In this document: piece after piece, positions 13,719 to 26,474 of the stretch
How positions within the stretch are numbered: the first letter of the stretch is position 1
How the letters are laid out: each line of letters starts with the position of its first letter
Assembly: GCA_026692965.1 (NCBI GenBank)
Contig: JAPLNF010000296.1
Coordinates: 5,109 to 39,953 of the forward strand
Source of the DNA: Planctomycetota bacterium
GTDB taxonomy: Bacteria > Planctomycetota > Planctomycetia > Gemmatales > Gemmataceae
DNA length: 34,845 nt
Direction of reading: 5' to 3'
Translations under genes and position numbers: made by a program
Notes under the pieces: model-generated
Seen by the model: the letters and a program-made list of their open reading frames with translations, nothing else
What the model was told of the DNA's origin: nothing
The model's database searches: none

Positions 13719-16700
13719 ATGTACAAACTCATTCATGTTTCACTTATTTTGCTTTTCATCGGGTTTAACCCCTTTGAATCAATGATTTTTGCCCAAGCCA
13801 GCAAAAAGTTAAAATCAAACATGATCGATCAAGGGCAATTTAATCCGGCGCTTAAAGGCATCGCAGTTTTTGAAGGATTTAAAGTCGAAGTTGTTGCACA
13901 AAACCCAAACATTGTTACCCCCTCATCAATTTCTTTTTCAGATGATGGCAAAGTCTTTGTCTTAGAGCGAAGCCCAAATTTCACCAAAAAAATGAAAGCT
14001 TCCTCTTGGCCTATAGGGAACTTAAAAGAAGGGATTGTTTTAAAAAAGCTCATACCTGACAAAATTAAAGCCCTCACTATAAACAAAACCACTGGGTTCT
14101 GGGAATCCCCCACCACTCTACTTGAGCCTTTTGCCCCATCTGCTTTTGTTACCCATGATTCTTTTATTTATCTTGCAGATTCGGGATCCATTCTTCGCTA
14201 TAAAATCAAGCCCGATGGCGGACTTGAAATGAAATCTGAAATCATCATTAAAGGCATCGCAGGTTTTAATGAGGCATCGCAGGTTTTAATGAATATCAAG
14301 TTAATGCGCTTGCCTTTGGTCCAGATGGCTGGCTTTATTTCCATTTCCCACCTGGCGACTCTCTCCTTGAAGGTACCGATGGTAAAAAAATAGCCGTCCT
14401 TCGCACCGGTGGCTTCGCTCGTTGCAAACCAGATGGCAAAAACCTTGAACTCTATTCGACCGGCATTCGACAAGCTCAGGGGAATCTTTCCTTCGATTTA
14501 CAAGGAAACTTATTCTCAGTCGATGATCAAATTTCTTCAGGTGAAAAACCTGAGGGCGCTCGACTTCTGCACTTAACGGAAGGATTCGATTTCGGCTGGC
14601 ATCTTGCACACCGCTCCAATTGTTGCGATCCAGACCTTTTCAGGATTTTAATGGAGGGGGATGATGCTCCTTACTCTGTCATCAATTTGCCGAAAATTCA
14701 TGCAACTTCATCTCATGCCTATACCGATAACAAGTTGCCTCAAAAATTTAAAAATCTATTTCTTGTTGCAAATGGCCTCTCCCATGAAATTCTTGGTATC
14801 TTTCCTGCCAAAGATAAAAGCACCTTCCTTTCCAGTGAATATTTTCCTTTCCTAAGTTCGAGCGACCCAACGTTTTTCCCTTCTCAAATAACACAAGGGC
14901 CTGATGGCGCAATCTATATTGTGGATCAAGGGTGCTCGAACGAAACTGAAGGATTAGGAGTAGGTGGGAGAATTTTAAGAATCCGTTGGCAAGGAACTGC
15001 CACTGATCCTGAAATCCCTCTTAGAAGCTTAGATTCTTTTTCTTCGTTTGATGAAAAATCAGTTGGCGATTTAATCGCACTTCTAGATTCAGGAGAAAAC
15101 TTCATAAAAATCGCAGCTAGAAATGCTCTAATTCGTAAAGGCAAAGATGCAGTTGATTCGTTAGTAAAACTCCTTAAAGATGAGGATAAAGCTTCAGAGC
15201 CAAAACTGCACGCACTAGAGGCGCTCGCCCATTTCTGGGATAAAGAAGTCCAATCAATATGCGAAAACATACTTGCAGGCGGAGACCCCAACCTTCAACT
15301 TATGGCAGCACAATATCTGTGCCGGTTTGCCTCTCCTAGTAGTGATTCAATTTTCAATGTTTTACTTAAACATCTGGGATCTGATACGCCCGAACTCAGA
15401 AATGCAATCACACTGGCTATGGGAAAAAACAATGCTCCAGGATCTGCAGAAAGTCTAATAAACTCGATCTTATTTTATGAGGGATCAGATATTAGAATGC
15501 TCGAGGTTTTTGCTCGTGCCTTGGAATTTACTGGAAAAAATGGTATGGAACGCATACTTGCGGTTGGTGATACAGGCGTAAAAAAAGACATCAGGAAAAT
15601 CTTAGAAGTTCAAACACTGATGCGCACTGCGCCCGCATTAGAAGGAACTCTGGCATGGCTTGAAAATCAAAACATCAGTGCTTCTGAGATAGTCGATTTA
15701 CTAAAAAGCCTTAAAAACCATAAGCAAATTCCAGAGAGTATTCTTTCCCAACTCGCTGTTTATTGTTTTAAGCAACCCGCCATGGAAGCGCCCATTAAAA
15801 TTGCTTTACTAGAATCTTTAAGCTATTTCCCTAGTGCCTCGTTTAAAGAGTGGGAAAAATTTTTGGATGCCTGCCTAGAAGATGCAGACATAAAAACCAA
15901 AATAGCCTGCATTAATATGATCAAAAACGCCAACATAAGTTCGTATTCAAAAAAACTTACTTCACGCATAAGCAGTCAGGAAATTCAAGACGAAGAGAAA
16001 GTACCGCTTTTAGAAACCCTTGCTGTTTTAAAAGGCAAGGAATCTATTCCTATAATCATTAATATTTTAAGCGGCACTAGGTCACAAAGAGAAAGCTTGA
16101 AAGTAAGGCAAACGGCATTACATGCCTTATTTGCAATTGACCCCGATAAAGCATCTGAAAGTATTCAAGGTTTACTTGGTTCGGTTTTATTCCCTGATAC
16201 TTTAAAAAGTGAAGCTTTGCAATTATTAGAAAAAAACCCATCAGGTGCTAAAGTCCTATTTGAGTACTTCGATTCTGGAAAATGCGACCCCAATTTATTG
16301 CCCGCTATATCCGAGTGCCTAAAAAAGTCTGGCCTAAAATCGCCTGAAGGTAAAGATTTAAACAGCTTGCTACTTAAAAAAGCTCTCTTAGCAGACGATA
16401 ACCTTTCACAGCTAAATCTTTTTGAAGCATCTATGAAATCTTCCGCAACCCTCGAAAGAGGAAAAGAAACTTTTCTAAATGCCAATAATCAGTCTTGTAT
16501 CATTTGCCATGCAATAAACAAAAACGATACTACGATAGGCCCAGATTTAACCTTTATACAAAAAATGGAAACAGCAAAAATAATCCGTTCGTTGCTAGAT
16601 CCTGCGCACGAAATAAACCCAGCCCATAGCACTTTCGAACTTAAAACCAAAACAGGCAAAACTGCTGTCGGCGTGAAAATCCGGTCTCCACAAAATCAGA

Positions 16701-17287
16701 TCATGTTGGCAGACGGAGCAGGAATAATATCAATCTTCAGTAAAAATGAAGTTACTTCTTTAACCCCTCTGAAAGGTTCAACCATGCATGACAACCTTTC
16801 CAGCGGACTTAGTTATAGAGAGTTGTTGGATTTGGTTTTTTTCCTTAAAGACCCTTCAAATAGCAAAACGTTTTCGGGCTCATCTTATGCTGGTCAAATC
16901 AAGGTAAATAAAGGTTTGAATGATTCTAAAAGCGTTTTGATCTCTGCAAGAAATGATGGTTTTTTTGATTTACAGAAGTACACCCAGGGTACCTCTGAAC
17001 AACTTTCCTTTCACTTCTATTTAAACGCGAATAACCAATCTAAATCCTTAGTAACCATTACCTCTCGGGATTCCTTCGAATTAAGAATCAACAGTGTCCT
17101 AATAACGGAGCAGCAAATCAAAAAATCAGTTACTACTTGCACTTTTGATATAGCTCTTAATTCTGGTTCGAATCTTATCGAAATTGATTTTTTAAAGGGT
17201 AAAAAGCCGGAAGGGTTTTATTTGCATTTCACGGGTGATGAGATAAATGGTTCAAGTATAAACAATAACCCGGCTCCTAAAGATTAA
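13719..17287 (+). pseudogene. PVC-type membrane-bound dehydrogenase / HEAT-repeat / CxxCH heme-binding protein, split by a 20-bp tandem duplication
   Basis: ORFs 13719..14393 and 14651..17287 join if one copy of the 20-bp repeat is removed: ...IIIKGIAGFNEYQVNALAFGPDGWLYFHFPPGDSLLEG...DLFRILMEGDDAPYS...; HEAT-like middle; C-terminal 'CIICHAINKNDTTIGPDLT' heme motif. Confidence 0.85.
14253..14292 (+). repeat. Perfect direct tandem duplication, 2 x 20 bp (ggcatcgcaggttttaatga)
   Basis: Copies at 14253-14272 and 14273-14292 are identical; length is not a multiple of 3 and accounts for the frame change. Confidence 0.97.
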
Positions 17288-20361: not shown

Positions 20362-21681
20362 ATGAAAATTGCTGTAGTTGGAACAGGTTATGTTGGCTTG
20401 GTTACTGGTACTTGTTTTGCAGATAGCGGGAATGAAGTAATATGCATCGACAAAGATGAAGCAAAAATTGCGGTCTTAGAGAAAGGGAAGATTCCAATCT
20501 ATGAGCCTGGCTTATTGGAAATGGTGCATCGTAATTCCCGAGACGGCCGACTTGTATTCACAACGGATTTACAAAAAGGCGTCCAAGCAAGTGATTTGGT
20601 ATTCATTGCTGTGGGCACGCCACAAAGTGAAACAGGAGCTGCTGATCTCTCCACTGTTTTTGCTGTTGCTAAATCTATCGCACTTGCTGCAAACAAAACC
20701 AAAATTGTAATCATAAAAAGCACAGTTCCTGTAGGTACCAATAAAAAAGTTCAAGACATTGTAAATGCGAACAGCAAATTCCCAATCCACATTTGCAGCA
20801 ATCCTGAATTCCTTAAGGAAGGGGCTGCAATCGAAGATTGCACCAAACCAGACAGGGTCGTCATAGGAATTCGCTCTCCAGAACTGTCCGAAATTTTCAA
20901 AGAATTATATGCTCCTTTTTTAAGGACAGAACGCCCTTTATTAATCATGTCGCCTGAAAGCGCTGAAATGACAAAGTATGCAGCCAATGCGATGCTTGCT
21001 ACCAAAATCAGTTTTATCAATGAGATGTCAAATATCTGCGAAAAGATGGGCGGGGATATTAATGATGTCCGCAGAGGGATCGGGCATGACATTAGAATTG
21101 GATTTCAATTTCTGTTTCCGGGAGCGGGATATGGCGGCAGTTGTTTTCCCAAAGATATTCGTGCGTTGATACACATGGCAAATGAAATCGGAATTGCCCC
21201 CACCATGCTTGCTGCAATTGATGTGGTTAATGAACTTCAGAAGGAGCTTCTTTTTTCCAAAATCCATGATCATTTCAAAGGAAACATCAAGGGTTTAACT
21301 TTTGGAATCTGGGGATTGGCTTTTAAACCACGAACAGATGATATCCGGGAAGCCCCTGCATTGGTGCTTATCGACGCCCTTCTTAATGCGGGCGCTAAGG
21401 TTCAAGTTCATGATCCGGAAGCAATGCCTAATGTTAAAGCGATTTACGGAGATAAAATTTCATACTGCAGTAAACCCTACGATGCCCTTCAGGGCGCAAA
21501 CGCACTGGCTATCGTTACAGAATGGCAGGAGTTTCGAAATCCAAACTTCCAATTCATGGCAGGAATGCTTAAAGAAAATGTCATTTTTGATGGACGAAAT
21601 CTATACGAACCTAAAGTTCTTTCCTCTGTTGGTTTCACTTATTATTCAATCGGAAGAAAAACTGCCTTCCCAAATTCTTGA
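20362..21681 (+). CDS. ugd: UDP-glucose 6-dehydrogenase
   Basis: '[36 protein letters not shown]', '[13 protein letters not shown]', '[14 protein letters not shown]', '[16 protein letters not shown]'. Confidence 0.95.
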
Positions 21682-21722
21682 CTCATGATCCCCAAGATAA
21701 AAATCTTTACAATGGGACTATC

Positions 21723-23060
21723 ATGAATTACATGGAAAACAAAAACACCCCAACCCCTTGGGATCTGGATGCAGAAGCCATCGTTGTAAAAATTCGATGG
21801 TTTGGCGTTTTAATAGGCTATTTTCTTGTTAATGCAACAGATATGAGCGGCGACCGCAGGGGTTTATTAAACCTAATCCTTGCGATCGGGGTTGGGTACA
21901 CACTTTTAGACACGTACTTTAGTTGGAAAAAAAAAGTTTTCCTAGCCGATTACCCTTTGTTTATCGCAGCTATGGAATCGCTTTTCATCGGCCTACTTTG
22001 CTATTATGAAGAAGGCCTTTCCAGCACTTTTCGTTATTATTATTTCCTTTCAATCTTATGTTGCGCATTGCGATACTCTTGGATTGTGACTGCGCTTTGC
22101 TTTACTTTTCATTGCATCAGTTATACTACCTTAGTTTTTCTTTTGAATGATAATTCACAAAGTAAACTTTTCATCTCACTAACCATGATTGTCATGGGTT
22201 GGCTTGCATGGGCATCAACATCATTAACTTCGCTTCTAAGAAGAACCAGTTCCTCTTTGGAAATTTTAAATCAGGAGTTATTAAAAAACCAATCCGAGCT
22301 TGAAGCAAGAATTGCAGAAAGATCAAAGCAGTTACAAGAAGCACAAGCGCAAGTATTACAGCAAGAAAAAATGGCAGCGTTTGGACTATTAGCAGCAGGA
22401 ATCGCCCATGAGGTTGGCAACCCACTCACCTCTATTTCCTCTATGGTGCAAATCCTTCAAAAAAAAGAACTCGATGATTACACAAGAGAAAAACTTGACC
22501 TAATGAGTGGCCAATTAATAAGGATTCGAGATACTCTTCGAGAAGTAATGGATTTTTCTAGGCCAGCTAATCTCGAACGAAAAAAAATCAAGCCCCTGCC
22601 TGTCATTGAAGAAGCAATGAATATTGCAAAATATTACAAAAGGACCAGAGGTAAGGTTATTTTGATTCCTGTCCCTCAAAACCTACCAACCATCAACGGA
22701 ATTCATGATCAATTGGTACAGGTAATTCTCAATCTTATTTTAAACGCCATTGATGCTGCGGGCACAGGGGGTATTATTGAGGTTGGAATAGTAGTCGAAG
22801 GTGACTCCATTTGTTTCCAGGTAAGCGATAACGGCCCAGGAGTCGCAGAAACTGATGTTAAAAAACTGTTTCTTCCTTTTTTCACTACTAAAAAACATGG
22901 GACCGGGCTTGGTCTTTTTGTGTCACAAAAAATAATCGAGGAACACCAGGGAATGATTCGCTATTACCAAAAACCCGAAGGTGGATCACTTTTTAGCGCA
23001 ACTATTCCTTCAACTAATTTTGCACTTTCAATCGAACCAAACAAGGTGCCCCATGACTGA
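21723..23060 (+). CDS. NtrB-type sensor histidine kinase with multi-TM N-terminus
   Basis: H-box 'AAGIAHEVGNPLTSISSMVQIL', N-box 'QVILNLILNAIDAAG', 'DNGPGV', 'FLPFFTTKKHGTGLGLFVSQKIIEEHQG'; several hydrophobic N-terminal segments; ORF opens at 21678, ATG 21723 preferred. Confidence 0.92.
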   Translation: MNYMENKNTPTPWDLDAEAIVVKIRWFGVLIGYFLVNATDMSGDRRGLLNLILAIGVGYTLLDTYFSWKKKVFLADYPLFIAAMESLFIGLLCYYEEGLSSTFRYYYFLSILCCALRYSWIVTALCFTFHCISYTTLVFLLNDNSQSKLFISLTMIVMGWLAWASTSLTSLLRRTSSSLEILNQELLKNQSELEARIAERSKQLQEAQAQVLQQEKMAAFGLLAAGIAHEVGNPLTSISSMVQILQKKELDDYTREKLDLMSGQLIRIRDTLREVMDFSRPANLERKKIKPLPVIEEAMNIAKYYKRTRGKVILIPVPQNLPTINGIHDQLVQVILNLILNAIDAAGTGGIIEVGIVVEGDSICFQVSDNGPGVAETDVKKLFLPFFTTKKHGTGLGLFVSQKIIEEHQGMIRYYQKPEGGSLFSATIPSTNFALSIEPNKVPHD

Positions 23061-24480
23061 ATTAAAAAAGAATCTATCCAGTCTAAAAGACTCACTCCCA
23101 AACATTCTTGTCATTGATGATGAGCCATTGATCCGCGAAACTCTTACAGAATTCCTTAATCAAGAGGGATTTAAAGTGATTTGCGCAAGTAGTGGCGAAG
23201 AAGGTATCAAGTTAGCAACAAGCACAAGATTTGAATTATGCCTTTGTGATCTGCAACTACCTGGGATGGATGGCATCGCATTTTTACAGGAACTTCAACG
23301 AATTAGCCCTGAAGTATTTGTAGTGATGATCACTGCGTATGCCACTGTTGAAAATGCAGTTGAAGCATTCAAGCGTGGTGCGCAAGATTATCTTATCAAA
23401 CCTGTTATCCTTGCAGAGTTATCAGAAAAAATAAAAAGATTGCTCGAACAAAAAAGGCTGGCACTTGAAAACCAATGGTTGAGAAAAGAACTCAACCGCA
23501 TCTACCCTGAAACCAAACTCATTGGTAAAAGTCAGGCAATGCGCCAAACAATTGAATTGGCAAACAAAGTTGCGCCAACAAGATCGACGGTATTATTAAC
23601 AGGAGAAAGTGGCACGGGCAAGGAATTACTGGCACGGGTAATCCATGATGGAGCAAACCCAGCCTCAACCAATTTAAAAGATTCTCCGAGCAGATTTTTG
23701 GCAATGAATTGCGCTGCCATACCACACGATTTACTGGAAAATCAATTGTTTGGTCATAAAAAAGGAGCGTTTACTGGTGCAGATAAAGATCAAAACGGTG
23801 TCTTTATGCATGCTGGCAAAGGCACCGTTTTCTTGGATGAGATTGCTGAACTTCCCCTTGCAACCCAGGCTAAACTTTTACGCGCAATTGAATTAAAAGA
23901 AATACTTCCTGTCGGTGCCAACGAACCCATCACCGTGGAAGCGAGGATTCTCGCTGCTACCAATAAAGATTTGCAAAAAGAAGTGGAATCTGGGCGGTTT
24001 CGTGAAGATTTGTATTATCGCTTAAATGTTGTAGCAATCACAATTCCGCCACTTCGAAACCGAATGGAAGATATCCCGGAACTTGTAGAGTATCTTTTGG
24101 ATAAACACGCAAAAGCAATGGGCAAAAGATTCACTGGGGTGAATCATGAAGCAATGCAAATATTAATGGCGTGCCCTTGGAAAGGAAATGTACGCGAACT
24201 TGAAAATGTATTACAACGAGCGGTCATCCTTTCTGATGGGCCCTTAATTACACCTACAGACCTACCACCTGGCTTGGCCCCGGCAATAGGGGAATTCGTT
24301 TTAATCGATGGATTGGATGAAGCCGTAAAAAGGTTTGAAAAAACACATATTGAGTTAATACTAAATCAAAACAGCGACAAGCGAGAAGCAGCTAAAAAAC
24401 TAAAAATAGCACTCAGTTCGCTTTATCGAAGAATGACTGAATTAGGAATTGCAACCGGATTGACCATACCATTCGCGTGA
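23053..24480 (+). CDS. NtrC-family sigma-54-dependent response regulator
   Basis: REC domain 'NILVIDDEPLIRETL...LCLCDLQLPGMDG', AAA+ 'LLTGESGTGKELLARVIH', 'GAFTGAD' sigma-54 contact loop, 'LDEIAELPLATQAKLLRAIE', C-terminal Fis-type HTH; 8-bp overlap with the kinase gene. Confidence 0.95.
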   Translation: MTELKKNLSSLKDSLPNILVIDDEPLIRETLTEFLNQEGFKVICASSGEEGIKLATSTRFELCLCDLQLPGMDGIAFLQELQRISPEVFVVMITAYATVENAVEAFKRGAQDYLIKPVILAELSEKIKRLLEQKRLALENQWLRKELNRIYPETKLIGKSQAMRQTIELANKVAPTRSTVLLTGESGTGKELLARVIHDGANPASTNLKDSPSRFLAMNCAAIPHDLLENQLFGHKKGAFTGADKDQNGVFMHAGKGTVFLDEIAELPLATQAKLLRAIELKEILPVGANEPITVEARILAATNKDLQKEVESGRFREDLYYRLNVVAITIPPLRNRMEDIPELVEYLLDKHAKAMGKRFTGVNHEAMQILMACPWKGNVRELENVLQRAVILSDGPLITPTDLPPGLAPAIGEFVLIDGLDEAVKRFEKTHIELILNQNSDKREAAKKLKIALSSLYRRMTELGIATGLTIPFA

Positions 24481-25284
24481 GATCCAATAGAGTATCGACT
24501 TCATCTCAAAAGGTTTGATCGTAGGGCATAAAGAAGCAATTTTAGCAGCAGTACCAGCGAGGTGGGCGGTGGCCCAAGATGTTTCAAGATCTGAACCAAT
24601 TGGCGCAAGGTCTGCGTAGCCATGCCCTAAAAATTCGAGCCCTGCTTGAGGAAAATATTTAAACTTTAGCATTCCATCCAACAACTTCTTGTTGACCGAA
24701 AAAAGTGAGGATTCAAACACCGCAGGAAAACTGCGGGTCAATGGATGATCGTTATTCCCTGCAGCAAAAACAAGAACATCATTCCGATAGGCGTCTTCAA
24801 GCGCATTTAAAAACTGCAATCTACGCCAAGGTTGCTGCAGCCTTTCTTCGGGCAATCCAAGCGAAAGATTGATAACCTTGCATTTCCAATCATGGATTGC
24901 AACATGAATTGCATGAAGCAGCAAATCAAGTTCGGTAAAGGATCGAAACTCAAAAACATTTGCAGAATATAATTGTGCCTGGGGCGCATGGTTTAAAAGA
25001 ATATCTGCAACCACTGTTCCATGAGGCAGAACCGGGGGCGCGATGGAAGAATAATCAATTACTCCATTGGGTTTAAACAATGCATTTGTGATGGGTTTAA
25101 ATTTAACACCCTTGCCATCAAATTTTCTTTGCAACTTCGCTACATTTACTCCGGTATCAATCAAAGCAATATTTACACCACTCCCATCCGCAAGTGGATT
25201 ACCAAGCAATCCATCTCGAAAGCCGAGTTTAATCAGATCCTGCAAGGCTTTAAAAAAATCAAAGGAAGGTTGCCCCTCAGTCAC
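24442..25284 (-). CDS. S8-family (subtilisin-like) serine protease, compact, no signal peptide
   Basis: Catalytic-motif candidates 'NIALIDTGVN' (Asp), 'LPHGTVVADILL' (His), 'VFAAGNND' (oxyanion Asn), 'TSWATAHLAGTAA' (Ser); GTG start at 25284. Confidence 0.88.
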   Translation of the reverse strand: MTEGQPSFDFFKALQDLIKLGFRDGLLGNPLADGSGVNIALIDTGVNVAKLQRKFDGKGVKFKPITNALFKPNGVIDYSSIAPPVLPHGTVVADILLNHAPQAQLYSANVFEFRSFTELDLLLHAIHVAIHDWKCKVINLSLGLPEERLQQPWRRLQFLNALEDAYRNDVLVFAAGNNDHPLTRSFPAVFESSLFSVNKKLLDGMLKFKYFPQAGLEFLGHGYADLAPIGSDLETSWATAHLAGTAAKIASLCPTIKPFEMKSILYWISREWYGQSGCNS

Positions 25285-26474
25285 TTGGAAGCCTCCCCAA
25301 AAGATGCAAGGAGCATTTTTTCAACAGTTTTCAAGAGTTCAGTACTGGAAATTAGAGCACTTTTTCCAAAGCGATTCTGCAATGCCCGGACTTGATTTAA
25401 AAACTCGATTTCTTCAGGAGGGATACCCGTTTCAGCAATTGCATTATTGATATTATCCCCTAGGCTTTGACTACTAATTTCCAAGGGGCTCAACGAGTCT
25501 GAAAGTTTTAACGCTTTTTCCATAATAAGAAGAAGATGGGTTCTCGCCTTATCGTGACCCATTGATTTAGCAAGTAATTCGGCGTAAATACCAGTCAATT
25601 TTTCCCACTTAATTAGGGCAGATTCTTGCGGATCGACAAATTCAAGAATAGCGATTAATTGGGAATCATAAACGAGAGGTAGGAACAAAGCGGTTTGAGC
25701 ATTAGCTTCAAAGGGATGAATAACAAATAACTCTTGATTCCCATTTTTAGAGAGATCAACCCGAAGTGGAATAGTGGAATTTTGATTGCAAACCGCAGAA
25801 GCTAGGCTGGAACTAAAATCCACATTGGAAGAAACAAAACTTTCCCCATCGTAGGTAATCACGGGGCAACCATTATTGGGAATAAAGCCGCCCGCATTGA
25901 TTTGATACACCGAGGCATTCTTCATGGGGAAAAATTCAAATGCTGTTTGAATTATTTTATTACAAGTAGCATCTAGGGTGTTTTCATTTTTAAAAGCACT
26001 GTTGGCGTCAAGCAATTCTAGAGAGCGAGCGACCATATCCTTAAAAGATTCAAGTTTCTTTTGAAATACTCTTTGGTTTTTTAGGGGTCGAAGTTTTTGC
26101 AATTGCTTCAAGACTGCATCAAGAAATTTTTCCCGAGTCAGATCCTGACTTTTATCAAGATAATCTCGCACACCTATTCGCATTGCATGTAGAGGGGTAG
26201 CCTGATTGGCATATCCGGTGACAAGAATCGCAACAATATCGGGTTGAAAAACAAAAAGGTCTTCAAGTAAATCAAGGCCGTTCAACCCTGTACCTAAATT
26301 CCAGTCAAGGATTGCGAGATCAACTTGAAATTCTGCTGCAATTTTAAGTGCTGTTTCTGCATCTCTGGCTCGATGAATATTGATATCAAACCCTGAGGAT
26401 TGCAACCATTCTACAAAAGTCTGCAAAACGCCCGGCTCGTCTTCCACTAGCAAAATATTATCGTTGTTTTTCAT
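25281..26474 (-). CDS. response regulator (REC) with GAF-like sensory domain, no recognised DNA-binding output
   Basis: 'NILLVEDEPGVLQTFVEWL...LAILDWNLGTGLNGLDLLE...VTGYANQATPLHAMRIGVRDYLDKS'; GAF-like centre 'TALFLPLVYDSQLIAILEFVDPQESALIKWEKLTGIYAELLAKSM'. Confidence 0.85.
   Translation of the reverse strand: MKNNDNILLVEDEPGVLQTFVEWLQSSGFDINIHRARDAETALKIAAEFQVDLAILDWNLGTGLNGLDLLEDLFVFQPDIVAILVTGYANQATPLHAMRIGVRDYLDKSQDLTREKFLDAVLKQLQKLRPLKNQRVFQKKLESFKDMVARSLELLDANSAFKNENTLDATCNKIIQTAFEFFPMKNASVYQINAGGFIPNNGCPVITYDGESFVSSNVDFSSSLASAVCNQNSTIPLRVDLSKNGNQELFVIHPFEANAQTALFLPLVYDSQLIAILEFVDPQESALIKWEKLTGIYAELLAKSMGHDKARTHLLLIMEKALKLSDSLSPLEISSQSLGDNINNAIAETGIPPEEIEFLNQVRALQNRFGKSALISSTELLKTVEKMLLASFGEASK

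Follow-up and report, generated by a model that had tools for sequence, protein, structure and literature searches.

Most bacterial signals are read out by DNA binding or through second messengers, and regulated proteolysis is mostly carried out by AAA+ machines or membrane proteases. RssB steers proteolysis, working with ClpXP. Among the subtilases, intracellular subtilisin (ISP) has a short inhibitory N-terminal extension with a LIPY/F motif.

Leaderless or cytoplasmic subtilases are not unprecedented. QhpE (NF049966), the leader-cleaving subtilase in quinohemoprotein amine dehydrogenase biogenesis, is an operon-encoded, single-turnover, suicidal cytoplasmic enzyme, and its substrate is encoded in the same operon (PMC7876137). 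PopC of Myxococcus xanthus, a subtilase of 50.8 kDa without a signal peptide, is complexed with PopD (PMC6434023).

The locus considered here lies in a 34,845-nucleotide stretch of DNA from a planctomycete of the order Gemmatales, referred to here as the window. Like QhpE, the window subtilase is compact, predicted to be cytoplasmic and encoded in an operon with a partner; unlike in the QhpE system, this partner is a GAF or REC-GAF protein. Identity with QhpE was rejected (67.7 bits against the NCBIfam equivalog cut-off of 165, less than half). The QhpC gamma subunit (PF08992) was absent from 102 genomes of the order, in a search that was equally silent in all control genomes. PopC/PopD, in which a partner controls the protease by forming a complex with it, is a precedent in mechanism, and the window subtilase, like PopC, has no signal peptide; PopC, however, is larger and has an N-terminal part, and no evidence of export was seen at this locus. 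The REC-GAF protein resembles RssB and PorX, both of which are in its fold-search list, in joining a REC domain and a long helix to an output other than DNA binding, whereas its partner is a subtilase and that of RssB is ClpXP. RssB itself was rejected as its identity (NCBIfam, 39.1 and 43.1 bits against cut-offs of 329 and 700), as were IetS, mycosin and PatA for the subtilase (16.8, 40.3 and 13.0 bits against NCBIfam cut-offs of 900, 278.75 and 421). By eye, no LIPY/F motif of the ISP type was seen in the window subtilase. A search of the open-access literature, with subscription papers largely outside it, returned no description of GAF- or REC-paired subtilases. The module of a GAF or REC-GAF protein and a subtilase matches no known system that we found and looks like an undescribed one.

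Gene layout of the locus

The features of the locus are listed in Table 1. The first-pass annotation of the window had described a stop-start overlap between the two genes, and both open reading frames were recovered with it: the four plus-strand bases TCAC read GTGA on the minus strand, where the TGA stop of the REC-GAF gene overlaps the GTG start of the subtilase gene.

Table 1. Features of the REC-GAF/subtilase locus, in positions of the window
Feature	Position	Strand	Basis
REC-GAF protein gene, 397 aa	25281..26474	-	ORF, Pfam, orthologues
Leaderless compact S8 subtilase gene, 280 aa	24442..25284	-	ORF, Pfam, orthologues
4-bp GTGA overlap of REC-GAF stop and subtilase start	25281..25284	-	Sequence
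NtrC-type response regulator gene (REC, sigma-54 AAA+, Fis HTH), convergent with the subtilase gene	23053..24480	+	ORF, domains
Histidine kinase gene (HisKA, HATPase_c), hydrophobic N-terminal part	21678..23060	+	ORF, domains

At its other end, the subtilase gene shares its last 39 bp (24442-24480) with the last 39 bp of the gene for the NtrC-type regulator, which converges on it. This regulator adjoins the pair in several genera of the order, not in most. A few other genera have the block of kinase and NtrC genes in the corresponding convergent position (L077, L093, L105, L097; in L092, NtrC alone). The kinase is a possible phosphodonor for the REC-GAF protein, and it is linked to the pair in only a few genera. 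Apart from this block and some upstream genes in a few genera, no extra neighbours are conserved in the order beyond the pair, and no transporter is kept beside it there. A sigma-54 site upstream of the pair was considered and rejected: the pattern matched 28 times in the window against a mean of 20, with as many matches in 5 of 100 shuffles, and none of the matches listed lies inside the gap upstream of the REC-GAF gene.

The REC-GAF protein

From its N-terminus, the protein comprises a REC domain (about residues 1-112, phosphoacceptor D57), a long helix (114-157), a divergent GAF domain (about 160-290) and a C-terminal helical region (290-392). It scores 65.1 bits against Pfam Response_reg (cut-off 30.2), and no DNA-binding domain was found, in line with the annotated lack of a DNA-binding output. 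Residues D12, E13, D57, T86, Y105 and K108 are invariant in all 38 REC-GAF orthologues. Five of them make up the response-regulator residue test (the acidic pair D12 and E13, phosphoacceptor D57, T86 and K108), and on these residues the REC domain appears fully equipped for phosphorylation.

The GAF domain is less regular. The window protein falls below the Pfam GAF cut-off (16.6 against 22.4 bits); the assignment is nevertheless firm across the orthologues, because GAF_2 matched in 11 of 38 of them with a best E value of 1.7e-9. As the domain is poorly conserved, a common ligand is doubtful. The structure model (pLDDT 78.8, pTM 0.56) shows the REC domain, the single long helix 114-157 and the C-terminal helices, with moderate confidence in the GAF-like part. 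In one genome (G001:C2:735527-736760), the unlinked REC-GAF gene consists of two overlapping frames matching profile positions 2-259 and 254-411, which may reflect a frameshift, a fault in the assembly or a gene that is truly split.

The subtilase

With 53.1 bits against Peptidase_S8 (PF00082; Pfam cut-off 21.8), the window subtilase belongs to the S8 family, and it is the sole match to PF00082 in its source genome bin, which is 74% complete. The recognised Asp, His and Ser motifs hold throughout the family: the alignment of 42 orthologous subtilases shows no substitution at catalytic D43, H88 and S236 or at the oxyanion Asn, N178. An apparent loss of the oxyanion Asn in two relatives, with His seemingly in its place, was rejected on the same alignment, in which N178 is kept throughout and the substitution lies one residue earlier, at the Gly.

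The annotated absence of a signal peptide and of a propeptide was borne out. No missed leader was detected, since the maximum 12-residue hydropathy within the first 30 residues stays below 1.9 in all 42 orthologues, and the open frame of the window gene begins only 12 codons 5' of the predicted GTG start. The protein aligns with mature subtilisin from its N-terminal region onward, which leaves no room for a propeptide.

The fold model (pLDDT 86, pTM 0.86) retrieves subtilisins at a probability of 1.00, at a TM of only about 0.6. An intact geometry of the triad, whose loss the first-pass annotation had listed among its refuting conditions, is suggested by this match and by the invariant residues. 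Because the window subtilase is without the high-affinity calcium loop, the best PDB matches by sequence and fold include the calcium-independent engineered variants of subtilisin BPN' (1sua, 1gnv, 1dui, 1suc), which, unlike the window protein, are engineered and of extracellular origin. Absence of the loop would fit prodomain-free folding in a low-calcium cytoplasm. As a unique signature of the family, loop loss was rejected, 16 of 27 generic planctomycete subtilases being without it as well. The residue preceding the oxyanion Asn is His, Asn, Asp or Ala in the family of the order and Gly in all 27 generic planctomycete subtilases; replacement of this Gly should narrow the S1 pocket and thereby restrict specificity.

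Conservation within the order

A sample of 102 genomes of the order was surveyed for the subtilase by protein search and for the REC-GAF protein by a full-length profile. The first-pass annotation had named in advance a lack of conservation in relatives as grounds for abandoning the module, and the counts contradict such a lack. The subtilase is present in 94 genomes, in nearly all as a single copy, and the REC-GAF protein in 93; both occur in 92 and neither in 7, while 3 have a single one of the two, the REC-GAF protein in 1 and the subtilase in 2, in both of which the contig ends shortly past the gene. This co-occurrence gives a Fisher p of 1.5e-8, a value that ignores phylogeny and treats genomes that are not independent as if they were. 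Several genomes without both genes are 87-100% complete, and the module is dispensable, as ten genomes of the order are without one or both genes.

In 78 of the 92 genomes holding both, the genes are adjacent on the same strand in the order REC-GAF, then subtilase. In the other 14 they are far apart or on different contigs, some of these cases being contig-end artefacts. Separation did not entail loss: both genes are kept 1.65 Mb apart in a single-contig genome, and on different contigs in six genomes of one genus. In 21 of 39 linked loci, an NTG codon is placed so that translation starting there would overlap the REC-GAF stop by 4 bp; start codons are predicted, and four of these loci come from the genus of the window itself.

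Outside the order, the profiles found no counterpart of either protein among 298 genomes drawn from the class, where the best subtilase match reached 61 bits and the matches were long generic subtilases. Copies 97-98% identical to this planctomycete subtilase lie on contigs (L006, L007) of a bin titled Candidatus Kuenenia stuttgartiensis, which is apparently mislabelled or contaminated.

Relatives beyond the order

When the subtilase profile was run across the phylum, nine further subtilases (92-122 bits) were found in other planctomycete classes. They are compact (about 240-290 aa) and leaderless, and a profile built from them scores its own members at 328-370 bits against at most 162 for the rest. 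A GAF-domain gene stands directly upstream in eight of the nine loci, with 4-bp overlaps in three; the GAF neighbour at L120 was recovered at E 7e-47 by a GAF profile built without it. The same GAF profile found no such neighbour at 10 control planctomycete subtilase loci. ECF sigma genes, mutually homologous, lie directly downstream in four loci (L116, L118, L121, L122), and ABC transporter genes lie upstream in only two (L119, L120). At L116:6745-11861, the leaderless subtilase gene comes after a hybrid histidine kinase gene (HisKA-HATPase-REC-REC-Hpt), at a distance of about 60 bp, and before the ECF sigma gene; the locus has no GAF gene of its own.

A plasmid search for subtilase relatives yielded two high-scoring ones, from Gemmatirosa kalamazoonensis (Gemmatimonadota) and Miltoncostaea oceani (Actinomycetota, WP_246551678.1). 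A neighbouring GAF gene had been predicted from the planctomycete loci, and it was found in both, here downstream of a subtilase that is again compact and leaderless. The Miltoncostaea subtilase gene has a sigma-70 gene upstream and a protein kinase gene in the same row. The lower-scoring plasmid subtilase of Exiguobacterium (142 bits) has no GAF neighbour, the window subtilase itself had no plasmid relatives, and a phage search with the Miltoncostaea subtilase gave only weak matches below 80 bits. On plasmid 2 of Gemmatirosa (L164:2577-8365), an unannotated gene row holds a weak sigma-70 region-2 match upstream, the leaderless subtilase, the GAF protein and, downstream, a TPR-CHAT protein (caspase-like).

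Taken together, 10 of the 11 relatives outside the order adjoin a GAF protein without REC, the eleventh being the hybrid-kinase locus L116, and the conserved core is therefore GAF plus subtilase, to which REC is an order-specific addition. This modifies the initial idea of a response regulator and a protease as the system: the pair is real, ancient and conserved, but the constant partner across three phyla is the GAF protein, not the response regulator. The spread seen across phyla, which draws on a single locus in each phylum outside Planctomycetota, is a minimum, as the scan of public genomes was capped.

A tree of 62 subtilases places the family of the order together with the GAF-partnered set, on the same side of a branch with moderate support (UFBoot 82, SH-aLRT 88). 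Members of this clade are compact and leaderless, replace the Gly before the oxyanion Asn and adjoin a GAF gene, with two exceptions: L116, which has the hybrid kinase instead of the GAF gene, and L121, whose oxyanion Asn column does not hold Asn. Six other compact subtilases (L154-L159) were rejected as members, forming a separate group without the oxyanion Asn and without GAF neighbours. These six, from other planctomycete genomes and with an aligned part of about 210-255 aa, keep the Asp, His and Ser motifs and have Phe, Leu, Val or Ile in the oxyanion Asn column.

Proposed function and alternative explanations

We lean, by a modest degree, towards a cytoplasmic protease of restricted sequence specificity that has the GAF protein as its regulator and is gated in this order by phosphorylation. 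A prodomain-free cytoplasmic subtilase would be paired with a dedicated GAF-domain regulator, usually made from one message, and the N-terminal REC domain present in this order would allow a histidine kinase to feed the switch as well. A change of phosphorylation at D57, a ligand in the GAF domain, or both, could be signalled through helix 114-157 and so activate or silence the subtilase towards a single cytoplasmic target or a small set of them, presumably through direct contact. If so, a small soluble subtilase under a dedicated response regulator would be a direct phospho-to-proteolysis switch, of which almost every member of an order keeps a single copy, and two unannotated genes of bacteria with an unusual cell biology would gain a function that can be tested.

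In the main competing explanation, the subtilase has the GAF or REC-GAF protein as its substrate and cleaves it, perhaps once, as QhpE does with its own, so that the released fragment is the signal. An operon partnership could be that of substrate and enzyme and not that of regulator and enzyme; QhpE is the nearest curated family for 42 of 42 members, and its encoding with its substrate in one operon (PMC7876137) is a layout suited to such a relationship. We nevertheless consider this unlikely, as both genes are retained even when separated, the GAF architecture varies widely while the protease is constant, and no conserved linker motif marking a cleavage site was noticed in the REC-GAF alignment.

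Less probable again is an arrangement of the PopC/PopD kind, in which the partner would hold the leaderless subtilase inside the cell and gate its signal-peptide-independent export, the protease acting outside. The PopD complex does block the secretion of leaderless PopC until starvation (PMC6434023), but PopC has a large N-terminal part, against the bare subtilase domain of 280 aa here, and a transporter beside the pair is not conserved in the order, ABC genes appearing only at the two extra-order loci already mentioned. It is similarly improbable that a general intracellular peptidase and a stand-alone regulator are merely co-transcribed neighbours with independent functions. Neighbours can persist without interacting, and the pair is missing from some genomes; against this, the two genes are absent together, both stay when they have become separated, and in three phyla a GAF gene adjoins the subtilase gene although no other neighbour is constant. 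A defence or conflict module with the protease as an effector released upon infection, to which weak PADLOC matches to a subtilase and IetS and the TPR-CHAT protease gene after the subtilase and GAF genes of Gemmatirosa might point, is very improbable: defence islands are patchy, unlike this pair with its one copy in almost every genome of the order, and, in the part of a conflict-systems survey consulted (PMC7159879), GAF-subtilase pairs were not found.

The regulatory reading may extend beyond the order. In our view it is somewhat less likely than not that the leaderless subtilases with GAF partners form one class of cytoplasmic proteases, spread across phyla and gated by a sensor, with the GAF protein as regulatory subunit and with inputs and outputs that differ by lineage. 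Inputs would be REC in this order and the hybrid kinase at L116; outputs would be the ECF sigma factors encoded next to the subtilase in five or more loci and the CHAT protease in Gemmatirosa. An ECF sigma gene adjoins the subtilase gene in at least 5 of the 11 relatives outside the order, which suggests a transcriptional output in those cases, probably by cleavage of the sigma factor or its controller. Such a class would represent two-component and ligand signalling with intracellular proteolysis as the direct output, and the arrangement of GAF, subtilase and sigma genes across phyla provides concrete candidates for substrate and input.

Elsewhere in the window, two consecutive open reading frames (13719-14393 and 14651-17287) seemingly represent one large planctomycete protein of the haem-binding type, split by a frameshift or gap.
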